Shown here: in pieces, positions 10,601 to 62,667 of the stretch
Numbering within the stretch: position 1 is the stretch's first letter
Layout of the letters: each line of letters starts with the position of its first letter
From: Thermoguttaceae bacterium
GTDB lineage: Bacteria > Planctomycetota > Planctomycetia > Pirellulales > Thermoguttaceae
Length of the DNA: 64,000 nt
Assembly: GCA_017407125.1 (NCBI GenBank)
Contig: JAFQXE010000038.1
Location: 62,001 to 126,000, forward strand
Reading direction: 5' to 3'
Translations under genes and position numbers: made by a program
Notes under the pieces: model-generated
Databases searched by the model: none
What the model was told of the DNA's origin: nothing
Seen by the model: the letters and a program-made list of their open reading frames with translations, nothing else

Positions 10601-11280
10601 TTAAACGTTCCGTCTGACGGAGCGGTAAACGTGTATTCCAGCAAATACGGCGTGCCAGCGTTCAAATTCGGCCAGTAGATCGCAGGATTGTCTTCCGACA
10701 TCATGTACCCGGTATACAGGGTTTTGTTCGCGTCGAACGTTTCGACAAACGAATCTGCGCCGCTGCCTGCGCCGCCAGACTGGAACGTATAGCTGTGCTT
10801 GCGGTTGTCGGACGCGCCCCAAACTCTGCCGTAAACGGTATACGTATAGTCTTTACCAGGCGTTAAGCCGGTAAATGACATATCGATCGTACCGTCAACA
10901 GCCTGACCGTCGTTAAAAATCATGCCTTTCATAACCTCGGCAAGTTGTCCAGAGCCAACGTTGGAGCTGTTGCCGGCATGATACAAAATATTACCGGATG
11001 AATTGCTGCCGTAGGTCATAGTAACGCCGTTAGCTGTGTACGTGTTCGTTGTAACAGTCGTAAACGGCACGCCATTGACGTTGTAAACCGTCCCGCTGTT
11101 TTGATTCCAGAAGTTGACAGCCATCACGTACGTTGACGTATTGTCAATGTCGGAGTCGCCGGAAACAGCGCGCATATTGAGCGTAGGAACCTTGACCATG
11201 TCTGCCTGAACGGACTGGAATAACGCTGACGCCGCCAACGTCAAAACACAAAGCGAAACGATTGTAAGCAATCTTTTCAT
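7699..11280 (-). CDS. Large secreted PEP-CTERM protein
   Basis: This 1193-residue protein has an N-terminal signal peptide (MKRLLTIVSLCVLTLAASAL, ending near SVQA) and a C-terminal sorting signal: VPEPSTWALLILGAAGLLYW followed by RKRNKN. PEP-CTERM tails are recognised by an exosortase, which is not encoded in this window. The body is Asn/Gly/Thr-rich and probably beta-sandwich. Near residue 260 the phrase EIVKNGGFEKDTF resembles the start of carbohydrate-binding-like surface modules. Two C-terminal segments are internal copies of each other: ADYSALVGKVFNTTDLIG and ADYSDLIGSVFSTTDLIG, each ending a lectin-like unit of about 200 residues. A role in surface attachment or polysaccharide binding is an inference. 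A good promoter lies 52 bases upstream of the start. Confidence 0.75.
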   Translation of the reverse strand: MKRLLTIVSLCVLTLAASALFQSVQADMVKVPTLNMRAVSGDSDIDNTSTYVMAVNFWNQNSGTVYNVNGVPFTTVTTNTYTANGVTMTYGSNSSGNILYHAGNSSNVGSGQLAEVMKGMIFNDGQAVDGTIDMSFTGLTPGKDYTYTVYGRVWGASDNRKHSYTFQSGGAGSGADSFVETFDANKTLYTGYMMSEDNPAIYWPNLNAGTPYLLEYTFTAPSDGTFKVTDRGINSGNSWHLYGVSLKEATLNPTDIPVSTEIVKNGGFEKDTFASGGDTHGYVQKHHAITDWNHAYNSSIGMAPEWGDLSRTVQRCGDFIKTGQMSYLPEGSTQALYIQNAGSLSQEITLEPDTEYVLSYYTSSRTSSRNPYYQATVDGKTVYDAPLRVNQFDKNIFTYNEYRFTSQSGDAPYTTTLGFNGVLYSDADGGTDRTLLLDNVQIVKASEYVAPTITGTKHDPTVNGWQANRWNSQATAYLDGKASDYSHAISLGDTPSTTRPMVIASGETLNFTGVQASGSSNSSPISQQYLTGGVSVVGSGNHKDGFNGGLYKDDNSKNLAEWTTCSMDRITLNGLEPGATYETMVYFRSYGTSTRTGYMTINGETSPLINVVDMANGNGGGLLVSYTGTADDSGVINIQFDNRNTDTFHLSAVANRFVSPAEQEYNIPLQIRFNKNDGSDIVGSKPEVAKGQLASKSLVERGFNQVSTFDQYDAKMNYNNGAAIDYKFTGTKATATADQIEGTNFGASKITLSADLMPGTLTTEAAPGGYNAGRGVGLGFFDFKAGGVGSGVDFGFAGLVLNPNGDLFYLDKSDAQSSGHAVAVPWGTDKANGGGAWKPDAWTNVSMDLELLDDGLKAKILDVHVIGSSADYSALVGKVFNTTDLIGFASSSSTTGKFSYVDNVQLIVRETATPELWNQKFEQYKADYIEAAGPDLAAATSFRGENGTVIPGTTMDIIDTKSADNVWLNRGMGNGNWNINGSRSGEPRFTIIDNQAKTSANSGIAADWDKGEVNSMQLSVDLKMGSLTGGEYQIARGLGLGFYDVDYGTDAGEIGRGFSGIVVSPNGGLYYYDNSQDNGLTYTNPIAFGGSFDKNEWYTLTMNLDFFQEDGKLMATLADVSLSGSTADYSDLIGSVFSTTDLIGLLSSSANSWDYFGVFDNFSMSKTVPEPSTWALLILGAAGLLYWRKRNKN

Positions 11281-30667: not shown

Positions 30668-30755
30668 ATAAATTATGAGTAGTTCGCCGACTCGACCGCG
30701 TTGGTTTTCGGCAAAAAACACAACCCCTATTTCCCATTGAAAGGAAACCCCTTTG

Positions 30756-33700
30756 ATGAAATCACGTCTCTTTTTATTGGCATTATGCCTGATTTTGCCG
30801 TTAGCGTCCTGCACGCCGACCAACACGTTTGAAGAAAACGCAAATCAAACAGCAACTTCAACCAACCCCGTAGTCGATGAAGCTCTTCTTCCAGCTGACG
30901 AACAGCCTGCGGATGCGGCTAAAGACGTCGCCCCTGCCGAAGAAGCCAAACCCGCTCAAGCCGCAGCGGACGACGCAATCCCGGCTGTTCCGGAAAACGG
31001 AACTCTGAAAGACTATCAAGAGTATCTCAGCGCTCTTAACAACGCTCTTAATAAAAAAGCGCTAAGCATGATCGCTCAAGCTCAAAAGGACGGCGTTAAT
31101 CCGCAGTCTGAAGAGTTTACCGCTACTTTAAGAGAAATAACAAACAAATATTTCGACAACATGGTTCAGGCAACCGACAAAGCCCTTCTTCTCAAAGACC
31201 TCTCAGACGACGATTTTGAAGAACTGGCTGGCGGCAAGGTTCGCCTTATCATGCTTTCCGCTCAGATCAACGACGAAGAGGAAGACGCTGTCAACGCCAA
31301 AATGCAGGCGTTCGCCGATCAGCTTCGCTCAATGAACAAAACGAAATTCGCCGACGACATCGAGGCCTCGCTGTTCGCAAATAAAGTTAAGAACTGCGAT
31401 GTTAAAGAATTTGCCAAAATCGCCGCTGAAATTGACGAAAAAGTCGAAAAAGCCGGAAAGGACATTACATCTCCTCTGGCTCAGCAAGCTATGATAATTG
31501 CTTTGTTTTCCAACGAAATGCCGGGTTACGAAGCTCCAGAAGGACGCCTGGAAAAATATAGCAAAGCTTTTACGGAAGCGTCCGATCCGGAAATCAACAA
31601 GATGGCCTCCGTTCTGGATCGCGCTATGCTACGCGCTGAAGGCGAAAAGAGATTCAAGGACGCCTTGGGCGCCGAATTCAAATTCGGCGGAACGTTCACC
31701 GACGGTTCCGAATACAAACCCGAAGATTACGCCGGCAAAGTCGTTCTGATTGACTTCTGGGCAACCTGGTGCGGTCCGTGCTGCGCTGAACTGCCAAATG
31801 TCAAAAAGGCGTACGACGCTTATCACGACAAAGGCTTTGAGGTCATCGGCGTTACCTGTGACAATCCCGAAGACGAAGAAGATTTTAATAAATTCCTCGA
31901 AGAAAACAACATCCCCTGGAAACAGATGTTTGACGATAAAGCGATCGTTCCGGATTTAAAGACAAAATCTGGCGACTCCATTCAGGTTTCCGAATACTAT
32001 GGAATTCACGCTATTCCTCGTCCTATTCTTATTGGAGCAGACGGAAAGGTTGTCTCCCTCAACGCTCGCGGCGAAGCGCTCGAAGAACAACTCGCCAAGA
32101 TTTTCGGCGAAGTTAAGGAAGAAACCCCGGCTGAAGAAACACCGGCTGAAGAAACACCGGCTGAAGAAACTCCGGCTGAAGAAACTCCGGCTGAAGAAAC
32201 TCCGGCTGAAGAAACTCCGGCTGAAGAAACTCCGGCTGAAGAAACTCCGGCTGAAGAAACCCCGGCTGAAGAAACCCCGGCTGAAGAAACACCGGCTGAA
32301 GAAACTCCGGCTGAAGAAACACCGGCTGAAGAAACACCGGCTGAAGAAACTCCGGCTGAAGAAACTCCGGCTGAAGAAACCCCGGCTGAAGAAACTCCCG
32401 CTGAAGAAGCTCCTGCTGAAGAAGCCGCTCCTGCTGAAGAAGCCGCTCCTGCTGAAGAAGCCGCTCCTGCTGAAGAAGCCGCTCCTGCTGAAGAAGCCGC
32501 TCCCGCTGAAGAAGCCGCTCCTGCTGAAGAAGCCGCTCCCGCCGAAGAAGCCGCTCCCGCCGAAGAAGCCGCTTCTGAAACGACCAGCGACGTCATCGTA
32601 TCCGAAGGCGTAAATGATGAAGGCGAATCCGAGAAAGAAGACGAGGCTGACGAAGCTGAAGACGCCATTCCTGCCGTTCCGGAAAACGGAACTCTGAAAG
32701 ATTATCAAGAGTATATTACCAACCTCAAGGAGCGTTTCCAGAATAAAGTTCAAAGCATGATCGCCCAGGCTCAAAAAGACGGCGTCAATCCGCAATCTGA
32801 AGAATTTTCCAATTCTTTAAAAGCAATGGCGAAAGAATACTTCGCTCGCATTGAACAGGCTGTGGATAAGGCGATGCTTCTCAAAGACGTTTCCGACGAC
32901 GATTTTGAAGAACTGGCTGGCAATAAGCTCCAGATTATTCAAATTTTGGCTCAGATCGGCGAGGAAGACGAAAGCGCTGTCAACGCCAAATTGGAAGCGT
33001 TCGCAGCCCAGCTTCGCAAAATGGGAAAAGCTGAACTTGCCAATAATATTGAAGGAAAGCTTATCCAGAACAAGATCATTGGTTATATCCGTTCTGGCAA
33101 CGTCGAAGAATTCTCAAAAATAGCAGCTGAAACTGACAAAGAAGTCGAAAAAGCGGGAAAAGGCATCACGCCTCCTTTGGCTATAAAAGCATTGTTAATT
33201 GTTTTGGGAGCCAAAGATCTGGAAGAGTACAAAGCTCCTGAAGATCGTCAAGCCAAGTACCTCAAAGCGCTTTCGGAAGCCTCTGATCCGGAAGTTCAAA
33301 AGCTGGCTGGCAACCTGAAAAACGCTATTGTTCAAGCTGAACTCAAGTCATATCGGGAAGAAATCTCGAGCTTCGTGAGAAGCGGCAATGTTGAAGAGTT
33401 TACTAAAGCCGCAGCCGAGATTGACGAAAAAGTCGAAAAAGCCGGAAAAGACATCACTCCGGTTCTGGCTCAGCAGGCTATGTTGATTATTATGGCTTCT
33501 AACAGTTTGCCTGAATACAAAGCGCCGGAAGGACGTCTGGAGAAATACACAAAAGCCCTCCGGGAAGCCTCCGACCCAGAAGTCAACGAGCTGGCTGACG
33601 AGTTGGAATCAGCGCTTTTCCGCGCTGAAGGCGAAAAGAGATTCAACGACGCGCTGGGCAAGGAATTCAAATTCGGCGGTACGTTTACCGATGGTTCCGA

Positions 33701-34910
33701 ATACAACGCCAAAGACTACGCTGGCAAAGTCGTTCTGATTGACTTCTGGGCGACCTGGTGCGGTCCGTGCTGCGCTGAACTGCCGAACGTCAAAAAGATG
33801 TACGCTGCCTATCACGACAAGGGATTTGAAGTCATCGGCGTTACCTGTGACGATCCCGAAGCGGAAGAAGATTTCAATAAATTCCTCGAAAAAAACAACA
33901 TTCCCTGGAAACAGATGTTTGACGAAAAAGCGGTCGTTCCTGGCGAAAAGACCAAAGACGGCAAACCGGTTCTGGTTTCCGAATACTATGGAATTAACGG
34001 AATCCCCTGCCCTGTCCTCATTGGCAAAGACGGCAAGGTTATTTCCCTTAACGCTCGCGGCGCCGAACTGAAAAAACAGCTCGTTAAAATCTACGGTGAA
34101 GTCGAAGGTGTTGGCCCTGTCGACGAGGAAGAAGAAGGAGAAGAGGTTGACGTTTTCGCTGACGAAGACGCTGAAGAGGAAGACGTTGACGATCTGGATG
34201 AAGACGATCAAGCCGCTGACGAAGCCATTCCGGACGTTCCGGCAGAAGGAGCTCTGGCGGATTATAAAGAGTACGTCAAAAAAGTAAACGTCTTGCTCAA
34301 TAAAAAAATTAAAAGTGTAATCCGCCAGGCGAAAAAGGACGGCGTCAATCCGCAGTCTGAAGAATATGCCAATTTGTTAAAAAGTACAGCCACAGAATAC
34401 TTTAGCCGCATTGAACAGGCGACTGACAAGGCGATGCTTCTTAAAGACCTTTCCGACGATGAGCTTGCTGAATTGGTTGGAGCGAAAGTTCAGCTTATCC
34501 AAATTGTAACGCAACTTAACGACGACAAGATTGACGTTGTCAGCGCTAAACTGCAAGCTATTGCCGACCAGCTTCGCAAAATGGGAAAAGAGGAATTCGC
34601 TAAAGACATTGAAGACTCAATCTTTAGAACCCAGCTGCATAACTACGTCCAGACAAACAACATCGAGAAATTCGCCAAAGCTGCTGCTGAAGTTGACGAA
34701 AAAGTCAAAAAAGCCGGTAAAGACATCACGCCGGACTTGGCTCAGTTGGCGCTGATGATTGTTTTGGGTGCCAATGAACTGCCTGATTACAAAGCCCCCG
34801 AAGGACGCAACGACAATTATCTCAAAGCCTTTGCGGAAGCCTCCGATCCGGAAGTCAACCAGTTTGTCGACGTTCTGAAAACGGTTATCAATCAAAAAGA
34901 CGACGAATAA
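30756..34910 (+). CDS. Giant lipoprotein with two thioredoxin domains, three helical modules and a TPAEE repeat linker
   Basis: The ATG at 30756, after AAAGGAAA, starts a 1384-residue protein with a perfect lipobox (LASC, C19). The order is: helical module 1 (about 70-300), thioredoxin 1 with C339-G-P-C342, nineteen TPAEE units (457-551), eight AAPAEE units (557-604), an acidic stretch, helical module 2 with its second half duplicated (about 640-965), thioredoxin 2 with C1002-G-P-C1005, an acidic Asp/Glu linker, and helical module 3 (about 1130-1384). Each module carries phrases such as VEKAGKDIT, YKAPEGR and EASDPE. It should sit on a membrane facing the periplasm or outside. The layout looks like an H-T gene fused to an H-T-H gene. 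The thioredoxin domains are intact. The partner proteins and electron source are unknown. Confidence 0.85.
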   Translation: MKSRLFLLALCLILPLASCTPTNTFEENANQTATSTNPVVDEALLPADEQPADAAKDVAPAEEAKPAQAAADDAIPAVPENGTLKDYQEYLSALNNALNKKALSMIAQAQKDGVNPQSEEFTATLREITNKYFDNMVQATDKALLLKDLSDDDFEELAGGKVRLIMLSAQINDEEEDAVNAKMQAFADQLRSMNKTKFADDIEASLFANKVKNCDVKEFAKIAAEIDEKVEKAGKDITSPLAQQAMIIALFSNEMPGYEAPEGRLEKYSKAFTEASDPEINKMASVLDRAMLRAEGEKRFKDALGAEFKFGGTFTDGSEYKPEDYAGKVVLIDFWATWCGPCCAELPNVKKAYDAYHDKGFEVIGVTCDNPEDEEDFNKFLEENNIPWKQMFDDKAIVPDLKTKSGDSIQVSEYYGIHAIPRPILIGADGKVVSLNARGEALEEQLAKIFGEVKEETPAEETPAEETPAEETPAEETPAEETPAEETPAEETPAEETPAEETPAEETPAEETPAEETPAEETPAEETPAEETPAEETPAEETPAEETPAEEAPAEEAAPAEEAAPAEEAAPAEEAAPAEEAAPAEEAAPAEEAAPAEEAAPAEEAASETTSDVIVSEGVNDEGESEKEDEADEAEDAIPAVPENGTLKDYQEYITNLKERFQNKVQSMIAQAQKDGVNPQSEEFSNSLKAMAKEYFARIEQAVDKAMLLKDVSDDDFEELAGNKLQIIQILAQIGEEDESAVNAKLEAFAAQLRKMGKAELANNIEGKLIQNKIIGYIRSGNVEEFSKIAAETDKEVEKAGKGITPPLAIKALLIVLGAKDLEEYKAPEDRQAKYLKALSEASDPEVQKLAGNLKNAIVQAELKSYREEISSFVRSGNVEEFTKAAAEIDEKVEKAGKDITPVLAQQAMLIIMASNSLPEYKAPEGRLEKYTKALREASDPEVNELADELESALFRAEGEKRFNDALGKEFKFGGTFTDGSEYNAKDYAGKVVLIDFWATWCGPCCAELPNVKKMYAAYHDKGFEVIGVTCDDPEAEEDFNKFLEKNNIPWKQMFDEKAVVPGEKTKDGKPVLVSEYYGINGIPCPVLIGKDGKVISLNARGAELKKQLVKIYGEVEGVGPVDEEEEGEEVDVFADEDAEEEDVDDLDEDDQAADEAIPDVPAEGALADYKEYVKKVNVLLNKKIKSVIRQAKKDGVNPQSEEYANLLKSTATEYFSRIEQATDKAMLLKDLSDDELAELVGAKVQLIQIVTQLNDDKIDVVSAKLQAIADQLRKMGKEEFAKDIEDSIFRTQLHNYVQTNNIEKFAKAAAEVDEKVKKAGKDITPDLAQLALMIVLGANELPDYKAPEGRNDNYLKAFAEASDPEVNQFVDVLKTVINQKDDE
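32124..32408 (+). repeat. Nineteen 15-base units encoding TPAEE
   Basis: The unit is ACN-CCG-GCT-GAA-GAA. Only the third base of the Thr codon varies (A, T or C), except for one CCC in the last unit. This points to recent copy-number growth within the gene. The linker is expected to be extended and acidic. Confidence 0.95.
32424..32567 (+). repeat. Eight 18-base units encoding AAPAEE
   Basis: The unit is GCC-GCT-CC(T/C)-GC(T/C)-GAA-GAA. It derives from the same linker as the TPAEE block by a one-codon extension. The second array sits directly after it with one APAEE unit between. Confidence 0.95.
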
Positions 34911-42852: not shown

Positions 42853-45204
42853 CTATTTCCGAGTTCGTTTCCGAACGTACAGCAGCCCCGCAGCGCCGAG
42901 CAACAGCAGCGCCCACGTTGACGGTTCCGGAACGCCAGCAGCCGGTTCAGCATAGCGGACAGACAGAATGCCGGTTGTGGAATCGTACCCAACCAGATCA
43001 AACATGCTCGACTGGAAAACAAGATTATTCATATCGAGATCGTTTCCGTTGCTGCCTTTAATTCCAGCCGGAAGCTGAATTTCCGCCACATCGCCGTCTT
43101 CAAAGGCGTTATCATAGCTGGAATCCAACGCGATTTTAATAATAGAACCGCCTTCAAAAACAGTATCTTTAGGATCAGTTAAATTCGGAACGTAAGTCAG
43201 AGTGTCAGTCAGAATATCGCCCTGTTCGTTCTTTCCAACTTCCAATAACAGTGTAGCGCCTTCTTTGAGTTCATACCCACCGCCATACTTTGCCTCTCCG
43301 ATTGAGTTGCCCGGCGAAAAGACCGCGCCAGAATCAACCGTAATTCCACCTGACATATAACCTTTTAAGTCTACAGGACCAGAGGAAACAACCAAGCTGC
43401 CAAGATTTACGGCGTTTTCAGCGTCAAAGCACAATTGCAGCGTATCTAAACCGGTCTTTGTAACAACCGGTGCGGTAATTGACCCGATAAACTTTGTTAA
43501 ATCGCTGTTATTAAGCGTTAAATTACCAGTTATATTCAAAGTAGCGGAAGCATTTTCGTCGACTACAGCGAGGTTATAGAGTGTTGAAGCATTGCCAATA
43601 TTTAAAGTCGTTCCATCTGCCAGCGTTGTCGTGCCACCGGTTTGAGTAACAGCCCCGGATAAGGTCGCCGTTCCAGCAGAAACGAGAATATCGCCAGCGC
43701 CAGATATATTAGGCGTAATAGTCGTGGTTGAATTGTTGAACTCCAAAGTTCCGCTATTAGTAACAGCGCCTGTTCCCAGCGTTCCAGAGCCGGTTAGTTT
43801 GAGCGTACCATCGGAAATTGTCGTTCCGCCGGTATACGTATTGGCGCCGGAAAGCGTCAGTGTACCTGAATTATCTTTTGTTAATTTGGCATTTCCAGCA
43901 ATAACACAGGGAACTGTCAGTGCGGTAGACGAATTGTACTTGAATTCATTCCCGATCGTTAACTTTCCAGTCATGTTTTGCATTTCGCCATCCAAGTATT
44001 CCAAAGAATTAAATGATTGTTCAAAGCCTCTCCAATCAACGATGCCATTAACAACCTTAATTTTTCCACTATCGGCGTTAAGTACATTAGACTGTACTTC
44101 TAAAGACAGTTTACCAGCTTGAGTGGTCGTACCGACTATAAAAGTACCTGTGAAATTTCGAGCGTGAAAAGAATTATTAATAGCCAAAAATCCACTTCCA
44201 ATAAGCGTAAGCGTTCCCGATCCGGAAAGATTTTTAAATCTATTCCAACTAACTGATGAAATTAATGTTGAATCTCCTGTTATGGTTACGTTGCTAGCTG
44301 GAATGTTACCTTCAAAGGCGGCTTCCATCGTCGCATTTCCGATAGTTAAAGAACCTGTACCTATACTGCCTAAAGATTTTGCAATAAGCGTACCGCCAGA
44401 AATAGTCGTTGTCCCCCTATAAACATTGTTAGAGTTGGTAATCGTCATTGTACCAGCGCCAGTTTTAACAATATTGCCCTTATTATTACCTTCATCAAAA
44501 ATACGAACAGACGATTCCAAAGTTGCATTTTTAGCAACATCAAAGGTAATTGTATAATTAGTAAGATTAAAACCAGAGTTTGTATTAATTCCATCCATTG
44601 TACTTTGGCTAAATTTGGCATTACAATTACTGTCAACTGTTAAAGTGCAATTTTGTCGCACCCATGTGTTTCGTCCAATAATGACTTCTCCATTGCCATG
44701 AAAATGCAGTAAATCACTAGTACCGCATAACATCATATTGCCAGAATCAGTAATTGTGCTATTATAAACACAACTATTATCAACAACACAGTCATTATAA
44801 ATATCAAAACCTGACAAGCATGTACTATTTGAGCACAAACTTGTACCTTGATATGTTATTTTTAAAGTGCCGTCTCCTTTAACTACAATGGCATTTTTAT
44901 TGGGATTTATTAATCCGCTCTGTTCAAAAGTTGCGCCGTTACTAAGAGTAACTGTGAGCGTGGAACCGATAGTTAGAGTCCCAGTATGATTAGCAGTACT
45001 CATAACGCTTCCATCAAGAGTAATGCCGTTTGTAGAGTCAACAGTCCAAGTAGCGCTTAAATCATCCGTAGCGGCATTGTAGTCAGCCTGAACAGACGAT
45101 ATGCAAAAGAACGATGCGAAGAACGCAACAGCAAAAAAAGCAAGAAAAGCCAAAAAAGAAAATCCGTCACGTGTTAAAATGCGGGGGGGGGGAGGAATGA
45201 ACAA
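42853..45204 (-). CDS. Autotransporter-type beta-strand-repeat PEP-CTERM protein, start disrupted by a poly-C tract
   Basis: The open frame encodes 783 residues. A signal peptide is present (FSFLAFLAFFAVAFFASFFC, ending SVQA before DYN). The body consists of beta-helix-like repeats, including units of the autotransporter-associated beta-strand type (LSGANTYTGGTTISDGTLKL). The end is VPEPSTWALLLLGAAGLLYV plus RKRTRK, a PEP-CTERM signal. The frame opens only at a TTG (45204) without a ribosome site. A proper start, AAGGAGT then ATG at 45221, lies upstream but is out of frame because of ten consecutive C's; from it translation stops after 15 codons. Eleven C's would join the ATG to the signal peptide. 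Phase variation or a sequencing error are the two explanations. The product would be exported and anchored by an exosortase system; adhesion is an inference. Confidence 0.75.
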   Translation of the reverse strand: MFIPPPPRILTRDGFSFLAFLAFFAVAFFASFFCISSVQADYNAATDDLSATWTVDSTNGITLDGSVMSTANHTGTLTIGSTLTVTLSNGATFEQSGLINPNKNAIVVKGDGTLKITYQGTSLCSNSTCLSGFDIYNDCVVDNSCVYNSTITDSGNMMLCGTSDLLHFHGNGEVIIGRNTWVRQNCTLTVDSNCNAKFSQSTMDGINTNSGFNLTNYTITFDVAKNATLESSVRIFDEGNNKGNIVKTGAGTMTITNSNNVYRGTTTISGGTLIAKSLGSIGTGSLTIGNATMEAAFEGNIPASNVTITGDSTLISSVSWNRFKNLSGSGTLTLIGSGFLAINNSFHARNFTGTFIVGTTTQAGKLSLEVQSNVLNADSGKIKVVNGIVDWRGFEQSFNSLEYLDGEMQNMTGKLTIGNEFKYNSSTALTVPCVIAGNAKLTKDNSGTLTLSGANTYTGGTTISDGTLKLTGSGTLGTGAVTNSGTLEFNNSTTTITPNISGAGDILVSAGTATLSGAVTQTGGTTTLADGTTLNIGNASTLYNLAVVDENASATLNITGNLTLNNSDLTKFIGSITAPVVTKTGLDTLQLCFDAENAVNLGSLVVSSGPVDLKGYMSGGITVDSGAVFSPGNSIGEAKYGGGYELKEGATLLLEVGKNEQGDILTDTLTYVPNLTDPKDTVFEGGSIIKIALDSSYDNAFEDGDVAEIQLPAGIKGSNGNDLDMNNLVFQSSMFDLVGYDSTTGILSVRYAEPAAGVPEPSTWALLLLGAAGLLYVRKRTRK
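45183..45192 (-). promoter_or_regulatory. Homopolymer tract (C10 on the coding strand) at the start of a surface-protein gene
   Basis: Ten G's on the + strand lie nine to ten codons into the frame set by the ATG at 45221. One added base, or two lost, restores a continuous frame from that ATG through the signal peptide. This is the classic layout of a slipped-strand contingency tract. Confidence 0.65.
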
Positions 45205-45221
45205 TCTTGTGATTTAGCCAT

Positions 45222-46172
45222 TATTTTACTCCTTCTCTAGTGGGTAAAACTGGTAAACGGTTATTGAAACGACTTTTGCGGCGGGACGCCCGGGCGCAAA
45301 AATAATATCGCTTTATTACATTAATTACATTATACACTCAATTCGGCAATCGAAAAGCGGTAAATGGGAAAAATTTTGAAAAAAAGTGAAAAATTTTGAG
45401 AAGATGGGGAAAATGGAGAGGAAAATTGGTTGGAAGGCGGTAATGGAGCGACCATCGGGAGCGGAATTACGCATTCGCCGACAGGCGAACGAAACGATGA
45501 GAAGTGTGCATACCAAAACGACGTAGCCAGAAACCTCCTCTGGATGTAGCCCGGCTTCGGGCTACGTTGCCGGTATCAAAGAAACCCTTTGTTCAGCCCG
45601 GTTCGCGGGCGTGACGTCCGTCGAAGCGAATTTATTATTTTGCGGACTTCGTCCGCGCCCCGGAAAGGTTTTAGGCTGCGGCGGAGAAGTTCAGCGGGTC
45701 AGAGTGCGGCAGGGGACTGCCGCTTGCCGGTTGTACAGACGGGTTTGACGCGTTCTCATGATTTTTGGAGGCTTCCGCATTGTCTTGACGGCTATCGCCG
45801 TCAAGTCGTAGCCCGAGGACGGGCTACATCCAAGGGACGTTATCTCCTACGCAATACGGTATTTCACCCTTCGAACAAAGCTTTCCGTGGGTTAAAACCC
45901 ACGGCTATTAATATTGAACCGCTACGCGGTTCTAGCTGAACGCTTCGCGTCCGTTTTTTAAAACTTTGCGATCTTTGCGTTCTTTGCGGCTTAAAAATCT
46001 TCGGCGGACTTACGTCCGCGATCCAGTATGGTTTTCGGCTGCGGCGCAGATTATTAGCGGGGCATTGGACAAGGCGGCGTCAAGCCGCCGCACTCCCCCG
46101 GCGCAAGCGCTCCCCTCAAGATGAGCGCTTGCGTCAATTGCTAATTGCCAATTGCTAATTGATAATTGCTCA
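45222..46172. repeat. Repeat-rich intergenic block between the surface protein and carB
   Basis: No gene is supported. 45276-45300 is a GC-rich palindromic stretch containing GACGCCCGGGCG. 45431-45495 is a family F end (GGAAGGCGGTAATGGAGCGAC..ATTCGCC). 45541-45568 and 45807-45832 carry GTAGCCC..GGGCTAC hairpins with the CTGGATGTAGCCC lead seen at 42421. 45885-45952 is family C. 45958-45990 has CTTTGCG 9-base units. 46008-46023 is GCGGACTTACGTCCGC. 46138-46170 is an AATTGCT heptamer array next to the carB stop. Minus-strand TATAAT at about 45336 may belong to the surface-protein promoter. Confidence 0.6.
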
Positions 46173-53643: not shown

Positions 53644-54615
53644 TTAATCTTCTCCCAAGCCGTTTTCGGGCGAGCCGCCGTTTCGAGTTCCCAGCGCCTT
53701 GTAAACGGCTGTGTCCATATTTTTGTTTAAGAACGAAACGCTTCCGTCAGCTTTAGAAGCGTTAACGCCGTCTACGTGGTCGCTTCCCATTGGAAGATGG
53801 TTAAACGGAACGTTATCGCCAATACGGTCGTAAGGAGCGTCAATTTCGTATCTGATAACTTTGAAAGCGTACATGCCGCGGTTTTCGTTTGCGCCCAAGA
53901 CCCACGGACGGACGTTTCCCGCTTGAGTAGAATACGCGCCAGAAGAGTCTTTCTGAATGTATTCGCTTGCTAAAAGCGTGTTGCTCAAGCCGTCTGTAAC
54001 CATGCTGACTTTGATTGCTTTCATCCAGGTGAACATACCGTTATCCGGCAAATTCCCGTATGTTCCCCCGGAAACTTCTGGCGCAACCGCATACTTTTCT
54101 CCCTCTTTGGCGTTTATTTCTTCCGTGGAACGAATCACGCCGCCGACGCCGTTGTACGTCCACAACGCGCCGTACTTGTAATAGATTGCTTCCGTGCAGA
54201 GAACCTCGCGCTGATAGGACGGACAGTAATACATGGGAATAATTGTTGTCAGAGCTGCCGGACGCGGGTTCTGATAATACATTTGCTTGGAGGAATAGCT
54301 GAAGTCAATCGTATCGTATAAAACCTGCTGGTCAATGAATGGAAGAATAAAAACCGCGAAACTGTGATTGAAAGCGCCTTCTTCTTTGCCTTCGGAATAT
54401 TTTCTCATGCCGTTTCCGGGAGGAAACGTTTCCATGTTGAAATTTGAATAGGCATGACACGCCAAAGCGATCTGCTTGAGATTGTTAGAACATTTCATTT
54501 TTCGCGCCGCTTCTCGCGCTGACTGAACTGCCGGTAAAAGCAATCCAACCAGAAGACCAATAATCGCAATGACGACCAGCAATTCTACCAGTGTGAATCC
54601 GTTCTTTTTACTCAT
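53644..54615 (-). CDS. DUF1559 protein with prepilin-type N-terminus
   Basis: This 323-residue protein opens with a type IV prepilin signal: a short basic leader MSKKNG, then FTLVELLVVIAIIGLLVGLL, with cleavage expected after Gly6 and glutamate at position 5 of the mature protein. LLPAVQSAREAARKMKCSNN, then LKQIALACHAY, is the typical start of the DUF1559 (SBP_bac_10) family, which is greatly expanded in planctomycetes. The C-terminal GSDHVDGVNASKADGSVSFL is the usual H-x-G-G/N-x-x-x-A-DGS motif. The protein is a pseudopilin-like exported subunit; its exact role is unknown. A plausible promoter is found upstream. Confidence 0.9.
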   Translation of the reverse strand: MSKKNGFTLVELLVVIAIIGLLVGLLLPAVQSAREAARKMKCSNNLKQIALACHAYSNFNMETFPPGNGMRKYSEGKEEGAFNHSFAVFILPFIDQQVLYDTIDFSYSSKQMYYQNPRPAALTTIIPMYYCPSYQREVLCTEAIYYKYGALWTYNGVGGVIRSTEEINAKEGEKYAVAPEVSGGTYGNLPDNGMFTWMKAIKVSMVTDGLSNTLLASEYIQKDSSGAYSTQAGNVRPWVLGANENRGMYAFKVIRYEIDAPYDRIGDNVPFNHLPMGSDHVDGVNASKADGSVSFLNKNMDTAVYKALGTRNGGSPENGLGED

Positions 54616-55002: not shown

Positions 55003-58000
55003 CTAACTCCTAACTCGCTTTCGCAAGTACAGCAAACCCATCGCCCCAAGCGCCATCAGCGCCCACGTTGACGGTTCCGGGACGGAGTTGGCGTCTACCG
55101 TGGCGGAAAGGACGCCAGTGTCGGAATCGTATTCCAGATTCGTCAGGAACGACGGATAGGAAAGAATTACGTTGTCGTCGAAATCTTCAATTCCTATAGG
55201 AAGCTGGAAACTGAGATTCTGGCCCGGCGAAATGGACGTTCCAGCTCCCATTGCCAGAGATACAATCGACCCTTCTTCAAACTCAGCAGCGCCCGCGCCT
55301 GTGCCAGCGCTGTTGAGAACAGTGAGCGAGTCCGTTCCTGTATTGTCAAACTCCATCAGCAACGTGGCGCCGCTGTTGAGCGTGAAAGAGCCGGTAATTT
55401 CCAGCGACCCAATCGAGTTGCCGGGCGAGAATACCACAGTGGAATTATCGGCGTCAGCAAGACCGACTTCCAGAGAGCCGGTAAAGTATTCTTTCATATC
55501 CAGACGACCGGAGGAAACGACCAGACTGTAGATGTCAACTGCGCCCTGAGCCGCATTGATCTGCAGGGTTCCTTCGCCGGTTTTGATGAGTTTCGCGGCG
55601 GAGCCGGAAATCGGAGAATTGATCAACGTCTGTTTGCCTTCGTCAACCTGAAAGTACGTTCCTTCGGGAGATGTCAGATTGATTTGGACAGCTTTCCACC
55701 AGATTGACTCAACGCCGGGATTGGCTCCGGAAATCACCGTGCCTTTGCCGAGGTTGACAGTCGGAATAACGTTGTTGGTATATGAGCCCTCTCGAGGATA
55801 CGTAACGTTAACAACCGACAGCGTCCCGTCGTCAAGCGTAAGCGTTGTGTCAACCGCGTAAGTTTTGTAATTTACGTTGCCAAATTGGACAAAATCAGTC
55901 GTTAAAGAACCTCCATTGGTAATTGTAACGGCGCCTGTTGCGTTTGTTCCGCGACCGTGCAGAGCAACGCTGTTTGCTGTTACTGTTCCGCCGTCGATAT
56001 TGAGCGTACCGGGCATCGTAACGCCGGGATAAATAATGTTGGCGGTAAGCGTCGCGTCTTTGTAGACGTTGACCGTCCCGCTGCCAGCGCCGCCGTCGCG
56101 TCCGATTTTAACGGTGTCCGTTACCTCGATTGTGCCGTAGTTGTCGACAAGACCAGTTCCATAGGAACCGACTTGAATATCCAAACTTTTGAGGGTTCCG
56201 CCTTTTTGGACGGTGATTGTTCCAGATTGCCCTGCGACCGCTGCAAGTTTCATGTTGACTGTGGATTCAAAGCTGCCGCCGTTTTCTACGAGGATCGTTC
56301 CGTTTCCGTTTGAACCAACCGTAACGCTTCCCTTCGCGGTAACGCTGCCGCCGTTTTTAACGTCGACAAGACCCTCGCCATAGGAACCGACAAACAGGTT
56401 TGTGTTACTTGTCAGGGAGCCGCCATCGTAGACGGTAATCGTTCCCTTGGATCCGCCGGAGTGTTCCGCAAGACGAAGCAGAGCGCTTGAGGTCATCGTT
56501 CCGTAAATATTCAGATTACCCGTTCCCCAGGATCCGACTTGAATTTCCTGGCTTCCCGCAGCGTAAGTAACGCCGCTGGCGATGTTGACAGTACCAGTGG
56601 AGTTTTTGTCAGCGCTGGTTTCGCCGCCGATGTACAGTTTCAAATTGCCAGCGTTTTGGGACGTTGTTTCCGTTTTAACGCTGCCGCTGTTGATATTCCA
56701 CGTTCCGTTTCCTTGTTTTCCAACAAAGGAAATACCGCCGCCGAGAATTGTCAAAGAGCCGGATTCCGCGCCGTTATAATTGACAACCGCGCCGTTGTCG
56801 ACTCTCAAATAACCCAATCGAAGCGCGTTGGCGTTGAGAGAATCGGTCGTTCCAAAGTTCGTTACGCCAGCCGTGGTTTCGAATCCGGTACTGCTGATAT
56901 TGGCGGAATAGTTGAGCGTTGCCGCCCCGGACTTAATCAATCGTCCAGTTTTATTCCCGCCTGTCGCCGCATTGGAATAGTAATCGCTTTTAATATTTCG
57001 AGTAAAGTTGATCTCGCCAGACGTTTGAGCCAATTCCAGCGTCGCGTACATGTCTGCGGCGGAAGACGTAACAGTAATTTCGCTTGTTGATGAACCAAGC
57101 GTTCCGTAGTCGGTAAGACGAATCGTTCCCGCTTCAATAGATGTATTTTTTGAGTACGTATTCGCTGCGGAGAAAACTAAAACGCCTTTTCCCGTTTTAA
57201 CAACGTTGGGTCTTGAATTTGCAGCAATTTTACTGTCAAATATAACGGCGTTTACCGTCAACATGGCATTTTCAGCGACATCGAACAGACCGCCGCTTTC
57301 GGTATGATTGTCGTTGCGAATTGAAATTCTGTTAGCGTCAATGACGTTCGTCGTTCCACCCGTTACGTGAATGCCGTTGTCGATAATATAGTTGCCGTAA
57401 TCGTCGCCCTGGTCGGTGGGAGTTGTTATGGTAAATTTGCCCTCATTGAGATACATGACGCATCCCATTGTAATGTGACCAGATGTAACGTTTATTGAGC
57501 CGCCGTCATTAAGATTGAGTCTGCTAACGGCGCCCGCTCCATATCCTAAAACCGTACCGGATCCGCTTAGGACGGCAGTCGATCCTTCAACGGTTATAAC
57601 GCTTTGTTTTGCAAACGTCCCCGTTTCGCCAGTTCTGGTAAGCGTCAGCGTTCCGTCTGTAACTTTAACTTCCCCCTTAAAGCCAGAGGCGTTATTCAGA
57701 ACCAGTTCGCCTGTCCCCGTCTTTTTTATTGTTCCCGTTCCGGAAATAACGTTACTAACTGTTTGTTTTGTATTATGTGCGAATTCCAGCGTCGCCGACG
57801 CGTCATCGGCAGAAGGCGTAACTGTAACGGCGCCTGTTTCAGCGCCGAGCGTTCCGTTTTCAGTCAGACGAAGCGTTCCTTCGCTGATGGTTGTAGCTCC
57901 GGTATAGGTATTGGCGCCGGAAAGCGTCAGCGTTGAAGAGTCTTTCTTGGTTACCGCGCCGCTTCCGGAAATAACGCCCGAGAACGTCGAATCTGAAGAG

Positions 58001-59046
58001 TTATTAAGCGTCAAAGTCTTTCCGCCGTTATTAATCGTTCCGGAGCCGGTCAGATTGTTTAATTGCTGCGCGGCAGACATAGTAATCGCGCCGTTATTTA
58101 TTACGGAAGAAGAACTGGCAATAGCGTTCTCCGCGCCCAGAGAAAGCGTTCCTGCGGAAATCTCCGTTGTTAGCGTATATGAACTAACGCCAGTAAGAGA
58201 CAGTTCTCCTGCGCCTTCCTTTTTAAGACCAACTGTACTTCCAAATATATCAGAGTTGATGGTCAGCTTGGCGTTTTCGGAAACGTTAAATTTGCCGCCT
58301 GAATTTCTGAGCAATACACGACTTGCGTCGATCATGTTTCTGGTATCGCCGGTTACGTTTATAACGTTGTCAAGGATAAAGTTACCGTAAGAGGCAGCTC
58401 CAGAGCCTGTAGCTGTCATTTTGCCATAATTCATATAGACAGGGTAGGGAATAGTCATGTGACTGCCGCTATTGCTGTTGTGGACAGTTCCGCCGTTTAA
58501 TATATTGAGCTTACCAGTATTCCAGGAGTAATACATGATAGCGCCAGCGCCGTCAAGAACAGCGCTTGCCCCATCGACAGTAATAATATTGTTGCTGAGG
58601 AAAGATCCATTGGTTCCGGTAGCATTGAGCGACAATGTCCCTTCTTTAATATAAACGTTTCCAACCAAAATGCGTTTACTGTCCACAGTCAGCGTTCCAG
58701 CGCCGGTTTTATATAATGTAATGGCTCTGGTTGAACCGTAATCATTACTAGCCAGTTGTTGGGTAAGAGTCAGAGTACTGCCCGAATCAATTTTGAATGT
58801 TGAATCTCCGGTAAGAGTTAATGAACCGGTAGCTTTGTTTTCTCCGCTTGAGCTTGTTACCGCAGGCGTGTCGCCTTCGTCTGCCAAAGAATGGGCGTTG
58901 GAATCTGTCTGACCGCCCGACAGGGAGATCGTTTCCGCCTGAGCAAACGCGGTTAGAAACGCCAGCGCGGCTGCGGCAATAAAAATCTTACCGAATTTTG
59001 AAAAGCAGGAAACGGAAAGGGTTTGCAAACGACGGTTATTCTTCAT
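55003..59046 (-). CDS. Giant beta-strand-repeat PEP-CTERM surface protein, paralogue 1
   Basis: This 1347-residue protein has a signal peptide (start MKNNRRLQTL; core IFIAAAALAFLTAFA, cut after QAE region). The body is a long Gly/Thr/Ser-rich series of autotransporter-associated beta-strand repeats (LSGANTYTGATTISEGTLRL and similar), expected to form a beta-helix. The C-terminus is VPEPSTWALMALGAMGLLYL followed by RKRVRS. About 700 residues (roughly 425-1125) are nearly identical to the next gene, while both ends differ. It is probably exported and anchored through the PEP-CTERM system; no beta-barrel autotransporter domain is present. The ribosome site is CGGAGCAAT ahead of the ATG. Confidence 0.85.
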   Translation of the reverse strand: MKNNRRLQTLSVSCFSKFGKIFIAAAALAFLTAFAQAETISLSGGQTDSNAHSLADEGDTPAVTSSSGENKATGSLTLTGDSTFKIDSGSTLTLTQQLASNDYGSTRAITLYKTGAGTLTVDSKRILVGNVYIKEGTLSLNATGTNGSFLSNNIITVDGASAVLDGAGAIMYYSWNTGKLNILNGGTVHNSNSGSHMTIPYPVYMNYGKMTATGSGAASYGNFILDNVINVTGDTRNMIDASRVLLRNSGGKFNVSENAKLTINSDIFGSTVGLKKEGAGELSLTGVSSYTLTTEISAGTLSLGAENAIASSSSVINNGAITMSAAQQLNNLTGSGTINNGGKTLTLNNSSDSTFSGVISGSGAVTKKDSSTLTLSGANTYTGATTISEGTLRLTENGTLGAETGAVTVTPSADDASATLEFAHNTKQTVSNVISGTGTIKKTGTGELVLNNASGFKGEVKVTDGTLTLTRTGETGTFAKQSVITVEGSTAVLSGSGTVLGYGAGAVSRLNLNDGGSINVTSGHITMGCVMYLNEGKFTITTPTDQGDDYGNYIIDNGIHVTGGTTNVIDANRISIRNDNHTESGGLFDVAENAMLTVNAVIFDSKIAANSRPNVVKTGKGVLVFSAANTYSKNTSIEAGTIRLTDYGTLGSSTSEITVTSSAADMYATLELAQTSGEINFTRNIKSDYYSNAATGGNKTGRLIKSGAATLNYSANISSTGFETTAGVTNFGTTDSLNANALRLGYLRVDNGAVVNYNGAESGSLTILGGGISFVGKQGNGTWNINSGSVKTETTSQNAGNLKLYIGGETSADKNSTGTVNIASGVTYAAGSQEIQVGSWGTGNLNIYGTMTSSALLRLAEHSGGSKGTITVYDGGSLTSNTNLFVGSYGEGLVDVKNGGSVTAKGSVTVGSNGNGTILVENGGSFESTVNMKLAAVAGQSGTITVQKGGTLKSLDIQVGSYGTGLVDNYGTIEVTDTVKIGRDGGAGSGTVNVYKDATLTANIIYPGVTMPGTLNIDGGTVTANSVALHGRGTNATGAVTITNGGSLTTDFVQFGNVNYKTYAVDTTLTLDDGTLSVVNVTYPREGSYTNNVIPTVNLGKGTVISGANPGVESIWWKAVQINLTSPEGTYFQVDEGKQTLINSPISGSAAKLIKTGEGTLQINAAQGAVDIYSLVVSSGRLDMKEYFTGSLEVGLADADNSTVVFSPGNSIGSLEITGSFTLNSGATLLMEFDNTGTDSLTVLNSAGTGAGAAEFEEGSIVSLAMGAGTSISPGQNLSFQLPIGIEDFDDNVILSYPSFLTNLEYDSDTGVLSATVDANSVPEPSTWALMALGAMGLLYLRKRVRS

Positions 59047-59157: not shown

Positions 59158-62100
59158 CTATTTATTATAGGCTCGCTTTTTGAAAAACAGCAGCCCCATG
59201 GCGCCGAGAATCAGCAGCGCCCAAGTGGACGGTTCCGGGACGCCTTCGCCGCCGCCATTCATGCCGAGAGCGATTTGTCCTAACGTTCCGTTGTTGTCGG
59301 TCGTGTAGTACAAGTAAGTCGATTCCGGCAGAAGGTTGCTCAGTTCGTCCAGGTTGATGGACGCAATTGAGCCGGCAATGGGAGAAGCAGACGTAATAAA
59401 CGTTCCGAGGATTCCGACGTCGTCAAGCGTAATTTCGTCTCCGGTAAGCAGCAAGTCGATACTGCCGTCCAACTCCGCAGATTCAACATTGTACGGAGTT
59501 GAAAGCGTCCAGTCGCTGCCGGACTTGGTGAGCGTCAGTTTCAAAGTCGAGTTGTCGTTGAGCGTTAGCGAAGAAAACGCAACGGGAGACGTCAATTCGG
59601 AAACGTCGACAATTGCGCCGTCCATAACCGTAAGAGAGCCGGAGCCGAACGTTCCGCTATCGGTCAGTTTGAGCGTACCGGCTTCGACGGTTGTATCGCC
59701 GGCGTACGTATTGTTTGCATTCAGAACCAGCGTCCCTTCGCCCGTCTTGACGAATCCGCCGTTTCCAGCAATGGGGCTGTGGATGATGGCGGTCTTGTCA
59801 GCGTCAACCTGAATGTTCGTCCCGTCTGCGGATGTCAAATTCACGTTGACAGCCGCCCACCAGATTGATTCAACGCCGTCAACCGCTCCGGTAATTACCG
59901 TTCCTTTGCCGAGGTTGACTGTCGGAATAACTTTGTTGGTGTATGAGCCGCGAGGATACGTAACGTTGACAACCGACAGCGTCCCGTCGTCAAGCGTGAG
60001 CGTTGTATTAACGGCGTATGTTGTGTAATTTGCGTTTCCTAGCTGGAGAACTCCTGTCGTTAAAGAACCCCCGTTGGTAATTGTAACGGTTCCCGTTGCT
60101 TTGGATCCGCGACCATGCAGAGCAACTTCGTTTGCGGTTACAGTTCCGCCGTCAATGTTGAGTACGCCTGCCATCGTAACGCCAGGATAAATAATGTTGG
60201 CAGAAAGCGTTGCGCCTTCGTAGACGTTGACCACGCCGGTGTTATCGGGTCCGTCGCGACCGATTTTAACGGTGTCCGTTACCTCGATTGTACCGTAGTT
60301 GTTAACAATGCCATCGCCCCAGGATCCGACTTGAATGTCCAGACTTTTGAGATAGCCGCCGTTTTGAACGGTGATTGTTCCGGTATTAGTAGTGTGTGCT
60401 GCAAGTTTCATGTTGACGGTGGATTCAAATCTTCCGCCGCTTTCTACGAGAATCTCGCCGTCTCCGTAGGAACCGACTGTAACGCTTCCCTTCGCGGTAA
60501 CGCTGCCGCCGTTTTTAACGTCGACAAGCCCATCGCCATAGGAACCGACAAACAGGTTTGAATTGCTCGTCAGAGAGCCGCCGTCGTAGACGGTAATCGT
60601 ACCAGACGACCCGCCGGAATGTTCAGCAAGGCGAAGCAGGGCGCTTGTGGTCATCGTTCCGTAAATATTCAGATTACCCGTTCCCCAGGATCCGACTTGA
60701 ATTTCCTGACTTCCCGCAGCGTAGGTAACGCCGCTGGCGATGTTGACCGTACCGACAGAAGCGTTGTCAGCGTTGGTTTCGCCGCCGATGTACAGTTTCA
60801 AATTGGCGGCGTTGCCGGACGTTGTTTCTGTTTTAATGCTGCCGCTGTTGATATTCCACGTCCCGTTACCTTGTTTCCCGACGAACGAAATGCCGCCGCC
60901 GAGAATCGTCATGGAGCCGGTTTCCGTGCCGTTGTAATTGACGGTCGCGCCGTTGTCGACTCTCAAATAGCCCAATCGAAGCGCGTTGGCGTTGGGAGCG
61001 GCTTCTGTTCCGAAGTTCGTTACGCCAGCCGTGGTTTCAAAGCCGGTGCTGGAAATATTGCCGGAGAAGTTGAGCGTTGCCGCGCCGGACTTGATCAGTC
61101 TTCCGGTTTGAGTCCCGCCCGTCGCCGCATTGGAATAGTAGTTACTCTTAACGTTTCGAGTAAAGTTGATCTCGCCGGATTCCTGAGCCAGTTCCAGCGT
61201 CGCGTACATCTTTTCATCAGAAGACGTAACAGTAATATCGGTTGTTGCCGAACCGAGCGTTCCGTTTCCAGTCAGCTTGAGCGTACCCGCTTGAATAACA
61301 GTGTCTTTTGAGTAGGTATTCGCTGCGGAGAAAACTAAAACGCCTTTCCCCGTTTTAACAACGTTGGGTCTTTTATCGCTGGCAATTGCGCTGTCAAAGA
61401 CGACGGCGTTTACCGTCAACATAGCGCCTTCAGCGACATCGAACAGACCGCCGCTTTCAGTGTGATCGTCGTTGCGAATTGAAACCCTGTTAACGTCAAT
61501 TACGTTAGCTGTTCCGCCCGTTACGTGAATGCCGTTATCGATAATAAAGCTGCCGTAGGAGTCGCCCTGGTCGTCGGGATTGGTTATGGTAAATTTGCCG
61601 TCGTTGAGATACATGACGCATCCCAATGTAATGTGACCAGAGGTAACGTTTAATGAACCGCCGTTATTAAGATTGAGTCGGCTAACGGATCCCGTCCCGT
61701 AACCCAAAACCGTACCGGATCCGCTGAGAACGGCTGACGATCCTTCAACGGTTACAACGCTTTCTTTTGAAAACGTTCCCGTTCCGCCTGATTTAGTAAT
61801 CGTTAGCGTTCCGTCAGTAACCTTAACTTCTCCCTTGAAGCCAGAGGCGTCATTGAGAACCAGTTCGCCAGCTCCTGTCTTTTTAATCGTTCCCGTTCCG
61901 GAAATAGCGTTGCTAACCGTTTGTTTTGTATCATGAGCGAATTCCAACGTGGCGTTGTTAACAACTTTGCCCGATCCCAGAGTTCCCGCGCCGGAGAGTT
62001 TGAGCGTCCCTTCTGTAATCGTTGTTCCGGCAGAGTAAGTGTTGTTCCCCGCTAATACCTGCGTTCCCGTTCCGACTTTTTCGATCGCGGTTGGATAATC

Positions 62101-62667
62101 GTCGACGTTGCTTCTGTAGGTGTTCATGATCTGCCCGCTGAAGGTTGCGTCTTTATTGGCTCCGCCGAGCTGATACGTGATTGTGTGACCGGAGGACTCG
62201 TCGTTGCGAATAAATCCGGTTCCTTCCAGCGCGCCGATTGAAACGATTGCGTCTGTCGACATGGCGGTTCTGACATAGCATTTGTCGCCCAAGACCAAAG
62301 TCCCCTGACTAAACCCGGCGTTCGTACTGGCGAAATACAATCCAGTATTCGCGTCCGAGTTATGAACGTTCATCGTTCCTGTAAACGCGGTGTTGTCCCC
62401 TGTCAATTTGAGGTAATAGTTGACGCTTTTGCCGGTATAGTCAACAAACCCGCCTCCAGACAGATTTCTGGGATAGGAATGCAGCGACGCGTCTGTGATA
62501 ACAAAATACACAGTATCGTAACTGTCGGTATCGATATTGGGCGCGTTATAAATCTCCCCGTTCGTATACGTGACAGTTTGCGCCATCGCGGGAACAATCG
62601 CAGCGCACGCCAAAACAAAAATCGCCAAACAAAGGGTTTTCGGGAACTTCGTCATGGGAACAAACAT
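59158..62667 (-). CDS. Giant beta-strand-repeat PEP-CTERM surface protein, paralogue 2
   Basis: This 1169-residue protein may start at 62667 (MFVPMTKF) or at the second ATG at 62655; neither has a strong ribosome site. The signal peptide is LCLAIFVLACAAIVPAMA, cut before QTVTY. The beta-strand repeats match those of paralogue 1 over about 700 residues, including SAANTYSKDTVIQAGTLKLT, VSNAISGTGTIKKTG and VNVTYPRGSYTNKVIPTVNL. The end is VPEPSTWALLILGAMGLLFF followed by KKRAYNK. The N-terminal 230 and C-terminal 200 residues are unrelated to those of paralogue 1. A perfect consensus promoter lies 83 bases upstream, so strong expression is expected. The two genes lie 111 bases apart on the same strand. 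Confidence 0.85.
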   Translation of the reverse strand: MFVPMTKFPKTLCLAIFVLACAAIVPAMAQTVTYTNGEIYNAPNIDTDSYDTVYFVITDASLHSYPRNLSGGGFVDYTGKSVNYYLKLTGDNTAFTGTMNVHNSDANTGLYFASTNAGFSQGTLVLGDKCYVRTAMSTDAIVSIGALEGTGFIRNDESSGHTITYQLGGANKDATFSGQIMNTYRSNVDDYPTAIEKVGTGTQVLAGNNTYSAGTTITEGTLKLSGAGTLGSGKVVNNATLEFAHDTKQTVSNAISGTGTIKKTGAGELVLNDASGFKGEVKVTDGTLTITKSGGTGTFSKESVVTVEGSSAVLSGSGTVLGYGTGSVSRLNLNNGGSLNVTSGHITLGCVMYLNDGKFTITNPDDQGDSYGSFIIDNGIHVTGGTANVIDVNRVSIRNDDHTESGGLFDVAEGAMLTVNAVVFDSAIASDKRPNVVKTGKGVLVFSAANTYSKDTVIQAGTLKLTGNGTLGSATTDITVTSSDEKMYATLELAQESGEINFTRNVKSNYYSNAATGGTQTGRLIKSGAATLNFSGNISSTGFETTAGVTNFGTEAAPNANALRLGYLRVDNGATVNYNGTETGSMTILGGGISFVGKQGNGTWNINSGSIKTETTSGNAANLKLYIGGETNADNASVGTVNIASGVTYAAGSQEIQVGSWGTGNLNIYGTMTTSALLRLAEHSGGSSGTITVYDGGSLTSNSNLFVGSYGDGLVDVKNGGSVTAKGSVTVGSYGDGEILVESGGRFESTVNMKLAAHTTNTGTITVQNGGYLKSLDIQVGSWGDGIVNNYGTIEVTDTVKIGRDGPDNTGVVNVYEGATLSANIIYPGVTMAGVLNIDGGTVTANEVALHGRGSKATGTVTITNGGSLTTGVLQLGNANYTTYAVNTTLTLDDGTLSVVNVTYPRGSYTNKVIPTVNLGKGTVITGAVDGVESIWWAAVNVNLTSADGTNIQVDADKTAIIHSPIAGNGGFVKTGEGTLVLNANNTYAGDTTVEAGTLKLTDSGTFGSGSLTVMDGAIVDVSELTSPVAFSSLTLNDNSTLKLTLTKSGSDWTLSTPYNVESAELDGSIDLLLTGDEITLDDVGILGTFITSASPIAGSIASINLDELSNLLPESTYLYYTTDNNGTLGQIALGMNGGGEGVPEPSTWALLILGAMGLLFFKKRAYNK

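Follow-up and report, generated by a model that had tools for sequence, protein, structure and literature searches.

A poly-C tract in the leader of a Thermoguttaceae PEP-CTERM gene: most likely an on/off surface-protein switch

A C10 tract between a well-formed start and the body of a PEP-CTERM gene

Does a run of ten cytosines that separates a good start codon from the reading frame of an exported protein act as a switch for that protein? The question is raised by a gene on the minus strand of the window (the whole stretch of 64,000 nucleotides that was analysed, from a gut planctomycete of the Thermoguttaceae). Its intact body ORF (42853..45204, minus strand) encodes a 780-residue beta-strand repeat (PF12951/TIGR02601) protein with a C-terminal PEP-CTERM region. 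The body matches the profiles for the PATR repeats (PF12951, 3e-17, and TIGR02601) and scores above cut-off with the PEP-CTERM profiles PF07589 and TIGR02595. The product has the features of an exosortase substrate: a hydrophobic signal-peptide-like segment (FSFLAFLAFFAVAFFASFFCISSVQA, 45085..45162, minus strand, recognised by eye from the translation), the PEP-CTERM sorting motif (VPEPSTWALLLLGAAGLLYVRKR, 42865..42933, minus strand), a transmembrane segment and a basic tail, together with an exosortase encoded in the same genome (TIGR02602, 120 bits, over cut-off).

On the plus strand the tract consists of exactly ten G residues (45183-45192), bounded by C45182 and A45193, and the coding strand therefore reads C10 (45183..45192, minus strand), the length that had been given in the earlier note. 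Upstream of it on the same strand lie an ATG (45219..45221), a Shine-Dalgarno sequence AAGGAG (45229..45234), a 5'UTR (45222..45328) and a -10-like TATAAT (GTGTATAAT, 45329..45334). That the well-formed AAGGAG and ATG are out of frame with the body was confirmed: at C10 the ATG opens an OFF-phase ORF of 15 codons and a stop (MAKSQDCSFLPPPAF, 45174..45221, minus strand). Among the lengths considered, leader and body are joined only at eight or eleven Cs; with either of these lengths the frame of the ATG would run on into the body, and the tract is a candidate switch. Addition of one C gives MAKSQDCSFLPPPRILTRDGFSF, with three prolines followed by arginine; the opening of the frame at C11 had thus been predicted correctly, and the four prolines expected there belong instead to the frame that runs at C10 from a TTG (45202..45204, minus strand). 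Apart from this TTG, which has no Shine-Dalgarno sequence, the C10 copy has no upstream start in frame, as stated before.

The C10 tract is the only C/G run of at least 8 in the window (3 overlapping matches, against a shuffle mean of 1.2); its length by itself is unremarkable, its location is remarkable. On the plus strand, antisense to the gene, the tract forms part of a G-strand element (TGTTAAAATGC-G10-AGGAATGA, 45172..45200), the local copy of a family-wide motif TGTTAANNTG(S)-G(n)-NAANATAG. An invertible promoter was dropped as a candidate, since there is no inverted repeat of at least 11 between positions 44900 and 45700 of the window and the locus thus lacks the mark of an inverton.

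Several other genes in the window deserve mention. Three further proteins end in PEP-CTERM (7699-11280, 55003-59046 and 59158-62667) and a pilin-like gene with a short leader is found at 53644-54615, all without a C/G tract of at least 8. A thioredoxin-like protein (30753-34910) carries a long ETPAEETPAEE / AEEAAPAEE array between domains, of which the in-frame repeat number could vary, and in a membrane transporter-like protein (5500-7227) about 90 inserted residues rich in Ala, Glu and Val (TAEQVIDEVKADAAAVADEVK...) separate hydrophobic segments.

The leader family within the genome and the genus

The source genome (4.44 Mb in 57 contigs) contains 14 C/G runs of at least 9, and seven of its ten runs of at least 10 sit at the identical leader position (binomial P about 2e-8 for seven of ten runs no more than 45 nt away from a gene start). 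The seven tract leaders all begin with AGGAGTAAAA..ATG, ahead of a signal-peptide-like segment; six are near-identical, and in the divergent seventh (L012) C10 is the length needed for the ON state, counted from its own SD-ATG. A search for the leader start identified about 20 genes with a common promoter, 5'UTR and N-leader, and the 19 copies that were aligned largely share the -10-like GTGTATAAT, the 5'UTR and the Shine-Dalgarno sequence, the -10-like region being clearly common to most.

The tract copies in this genome are C10 or C11 and three of the seven are in frame, whereas the tract-free copies, which have mixed codons in place of the run, have an open ATG frame in 14 out of 14 cases (Fisher P 0.006). 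Identical leaders occur at C11 (ON) and at C10 (OFF) in this one genome. Tract-free leaders in which the GCATTTTAAC point is retained measure 37 or 40 nt up to it, which are the C8 and C11 lengths, as if these leaders were arrested switches.

The leader module is also present in three other genomes of the genus. The four congeneric genomes, all drafts or MAGs in which tract lengths may carry assembly error, together hold 24 tracts (one C9, 13 C10, eight C11 and two C12), and with start codons assigned by rule and paralogs that are not independent, 7 of these are ON and 17 OFF, where random phase predicts 8 ON. The comparison of tract length with related genomes that the earlier note had proposed showed that orthologs differ: in three of four ortholog pairs the lengths are unequal (C10/C12, C12/C10 and C11/C10). 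The fourth pair (C10/C10) consists of the window gene and its true ortholog (L131 in G001), which is adjoined by carB at the same place. OFF bodies of about 500 codons or more contain no further stop in the stretch read; three OFF copies near contig ends or in short ORFs (L122, L133 and L134) fall outside this statement. The dN/dS ratios for OFF/OFF pairs across species are 0.28, 0.31 and 0.43, which indicates that the OFF bodies are under purifying selection.

We consider a slipped-strand contingency switch, that is phase variation, the best explanation for the tract, with a probability of about 0.78. The gene has a homopolymer of at least 8 between start and body in which one unit shifts the frame, and tract length varies between copies and orthologs of genes that are otherwise intact, as in known cases of translational phase variation by simple sequence repeats. 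The ON/OFF frame switch proposed in the earlier note is supported by the C10 and C11 sister leaders, the length differences between orthologs, the constrained OFF bodies and the mixture of phases (7 of 24 ON). In the proposed mechanism, a shared promoter, 5'UTR and SD-ATG leader would feed a set of exported PEP-CTERM/beta-repeat proteins, and replication slippage in the C run would decide whether leader and signal peptide share a reading frame. The window gene would be OFF in the assembly (C10), with C11 or C8 as the ON state. As the roughly 20 genes of the module would comprise some with live tracts and some with interrupted, locked-ON tracts, cells of one clone would display different sets of surface proteins. 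The slippage within a population, and the change in expression and at the surface that it would bring about, are what we infer from this architecture.

A strand-polarised element around the tract

A BLAST search with the leader recovered the poly-C plus ATTTTAACA in other genera. The poly-C form of the element was found there before exported proteins, and leaders of pilin-like genes (FTLVELLVV) contain its reverse complement, TGTTAAAATG-G(n). Overall, the genes that follow comparable tracts in other genera encode pseudopilins and exported repeat proteins, and one is glycosyltransferase-like. Of 119 Thermoguttaceae genomes, 37 (in 7 of 40 genera) contain the pattern TGTTAANNTG(S)G8, and a reversed control pattern has zero matches in these 37 genomes. 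The narrower GTTAAAATGNG8 was found in 26 of 119 Thermoguttaceae genomes and in none of a sample of about 290 other genomes from across the phylum. When named genomes were scanned, the matches listed were mainly Thermoguttaceae/Planctomycetaceae MAGs with a few scattered outsiders, and several of these listed MAGs carry ruminant gut site names; other carriers of the element presumably come from termites, to judge by their isolate names. For the family as such, a strain is reported to have been isolated from digesters (PMC11929135). The matches outside the family (Bacteroidales, Sumerlaeota) were taken as chance, being scattered and not in comparable leaders.

In some genomes the number of G runs of at least 10 ranges from tens to about a hundred (102 in G048 and 74 in G045), and one single-contig relative has none. 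We read 40 unbiased loci from G048 and G067 and then about 49 more, and most of these are followed by a pilin motif or by an exported repeat protein. One element precedes a glycosyltransferase-like gene, and the tracts of its ortholog pair (G048/G073) differ in length, with G12 in one member and G10 in the other. Insertion as a mobile unit was disfavoured, as both members of this pair have the element with the same flanks; in the one pair examined nothing thus points to a recent move. Nor was an empty site for the element found.

Some loci differ from the common layout. The pilin-like genes L357 and L345 of G045 have a leader with poly-Phe followed by poly-Gly, in which a long T run lies near 17-18 G. 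In L333, L339, L342 and L348 (G045, genus g9) the element has the variant form TGTTAAAATAGGCAA-G12-16, with the TAG box before and not after the G run. At L063 (G123, another family of the order) the contig ends in 24 C beside GCATTTTAACA and adjoins a sigma-factor-like gene, which may be chance or an artefact. At L108/L066 (G087) the element lies in the leader of what by eye is a membrane O-acyltransferase-like protein; membrane O-acyltransferases are a class that is often phase variable elsewhere.

The most conspicuous property of the element is its strand polarity. Some genes carry the G run on the coding strand and others the C run, so that the element occurs in either orientation, and the sequence logos agree between the two. 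As the box columns of the logos are inflated by their use for anchoring, GTTAA was counted against shuffles: it lies 5' of the G run in 22 of 46 sense and 11 of 23 antisense loci (shuffles, 1.2 and 0.4), and on the C side in only 1 sense and 0 antisense loci. Where both boxes are clear, TGNYAA and the downstream TAG stand 20 nt apart in 16 of 21 sites in G048 and in 7 of 10 in G067. This spacing is kept although tract length and edges vary, and shuffling of flanks against tracts rarely reaches the same constancy (P 0.001 for G048 and 5e-5 for G067).

Constant spacing as a mere reading-frame effect was rejected: in genera g18 and g29 few of the sites at the modal spacing of 20 nt are in frame (2 of 21 ON, P 0.013, in a tally assembled by hand), and frame by itself is therefore no sufficient reason for the spacing. 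In these genera 11 of 54 loci are ON, which is below one third (P 0.027, with the start codon assigned by rule). Both figures speak against the phase-variation reading, as does the DNA-level motif around the tract, which simple phase variation would not predict.

It is possible, and we put it forward tentatively, that TGTTAANNTG-G(8+)-NAANATAG is a dedicated DNA element in 5' coding leaders, conserved as DNA and not as peptide or frame, which would serve as a purpose-built hypermutation or regulatory cassette. Such a cassette, as opposed to a chance homopolymer, might be a promoter, form a G-quadruplex or be bound by a protein, and in some gut Thermoguttaceae a single genome would carry it in tens of surface genes. 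The strongest competitor of the phase-variation reading takes the DNA element (GTTAA box, G run and TAG box) as the conserved unit, with frame switching as secondary; for instance, an extended -10 promoter might start transcription inside the G run and favour a G-quadruplex or an R-loop, in the manner of Neisseria pilE. We regard this as rather doubtful. It would account for the occurrence of GTTAA 5' of the G run in both orientations, far above shuffles, and for the 20-nt spacing in most two-box sites, and start sites of the pilE G4 promoter do lie inside the G4 sequence (PMC3547852). The leucine codon of the tract-free leaders in the source genome is TTA in 10 of 10 cases, against a background of 16% elsewhere, a figure that is weakened by the common descent of these leaders. 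Against it, no -35 was seen, a promoter scan gave no match on the G strand of the element, the likeness to a -10 was judged by eye, and the TAG box is degenerate in the genus of the window. A sigma-70 promoter in which the G run would be the -35/-10 spacer was rejected on the empty promoter scan and because position 1 of the -35 is unconserved. An extended -10 from which transcription would enter the G run, on the model of pilE, should be seen as a lead and not as a result.

Other explanations and known systems

Phase variation has also to be weighed against readings in which C10 is no OFF state. Constitutive expression through transcriptional or ribosomal slippage, with C10 as the working state, would fit with C10 being the commonest length (13 of 24) and being shared by the ortholog of the window gene, and homopolymers are slippery for RNA polymerase as well (PMC3711429). 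We consider it unlikely, as three of the four ortholog pairs differ in length, the C11 leaders read straight through and the tract-free copies are all in frame. Only slightly less credible is an assembly or sequencing error by which a true C11 was reported as C10 and the gene is simply ON. Long homopolymers are error-prone, and of 20 tracts in G012, 6 are at most 150 bp away from the end of a contig where 0.64 is expected, an excess that fits a mixture of lengths and sequencing difficulty alike. Set against this are the C9, C10, C11 and C12 copies in four separately assembled genomes and a proportion of 7 ON to 17 OFF that matches random phase and thereby disfavours a uniform error; even with single lengths in error, the conservation of the poly-C as such in the leader would stand. 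That the OFF copies are pseudogenes, as the 17 of 24 copies out of frame in the assemblies might suggest, is very improbable given the long bodies free of other stops and the low dN/dS of the OFF pairs. The least probable of all is expression of the C10 state from the in-frame TTG at 45204, which is without a Shine-Dalgarno sequence, is not present in the majority of the 14 OFF copies compared within the genus and has no counterpart in the true ortholog, where there is no in-frame start at all; this lack of conservation weakens the objection that the earlier note had named.

The tract is thus most likely an on/off switch for a surface protein, of a kind apparently undescribed in this phylum, and the strand-polarised element with its DNA-level conservation is the newest part. 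Phase variation by homopolymers is itself a known kind of switch (PMC8355987, PMC5084427). In the literature searched, with most subscription papers outside it, we found no planctomycete or PEP-CTERM homopolymer switch. The earlier remark that no such case is known for PEP-CTERM proteins has to be qualified: Akkermansia PEP-CTERM genes are reported to be enriched near invertons, which are invertible segments (PMC11892184). If the phase-variation reading is true, slipped-strand switching would occur on a large scale in a phylum where the searched literature shows none and would be tied to PEP-CTERM and pilin-like (FTLVELLVV) proteins, suggesting that gut Thermoguttaceae of ruminants and termites diversify their surface like host-associated pathogens do. 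The strand-polarised motif raises the more general question of whether bacteria have dedicated elements that make tracts hypermutable.

The loci resemble the poly-G/C loci of Campylobacter, Neisseria and Helicobacter in having a run of at least 8 near the 5' end of surface genes (PMC8355987, PMC5084427), in the frame shift caused by a one-base change, and in the many loci per genome with a mixture of ON and OFF. They differ from these in belonging to the Planctomycetota, in having the tract in a shared leader that is followed by a signal peptide or prepilin motif, and in the strand-polarised flanking motif with near-constant spacing around the tract. Akkermansia muciniphila is similar as a gut bacterium with an exosortase and PEP-CTERM proteins, in which mononucleotide tracts were proposed to be phase variable and homopolymers were named in capsule and acyltransferase genes (PMC3048395, PMC11892184); here, in contrast, the tract lies inside the PEP-CTERM leader and the window locus has no inverted repeat of at least 11. 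A third likeness is that to the G4/cis-acting sRNA of pilE in Neisseria gonorrhoeae, where a G run is found at a pilin locus (PMC3547852); a -10-like box immediately 5' of the run, on its G-rich strand, may be a further common point. The pilE G4 lies upstream of the gene and drives gene conversion, whereas the runs described here occur in either orientation and inside the coding leaders of numerous genes.
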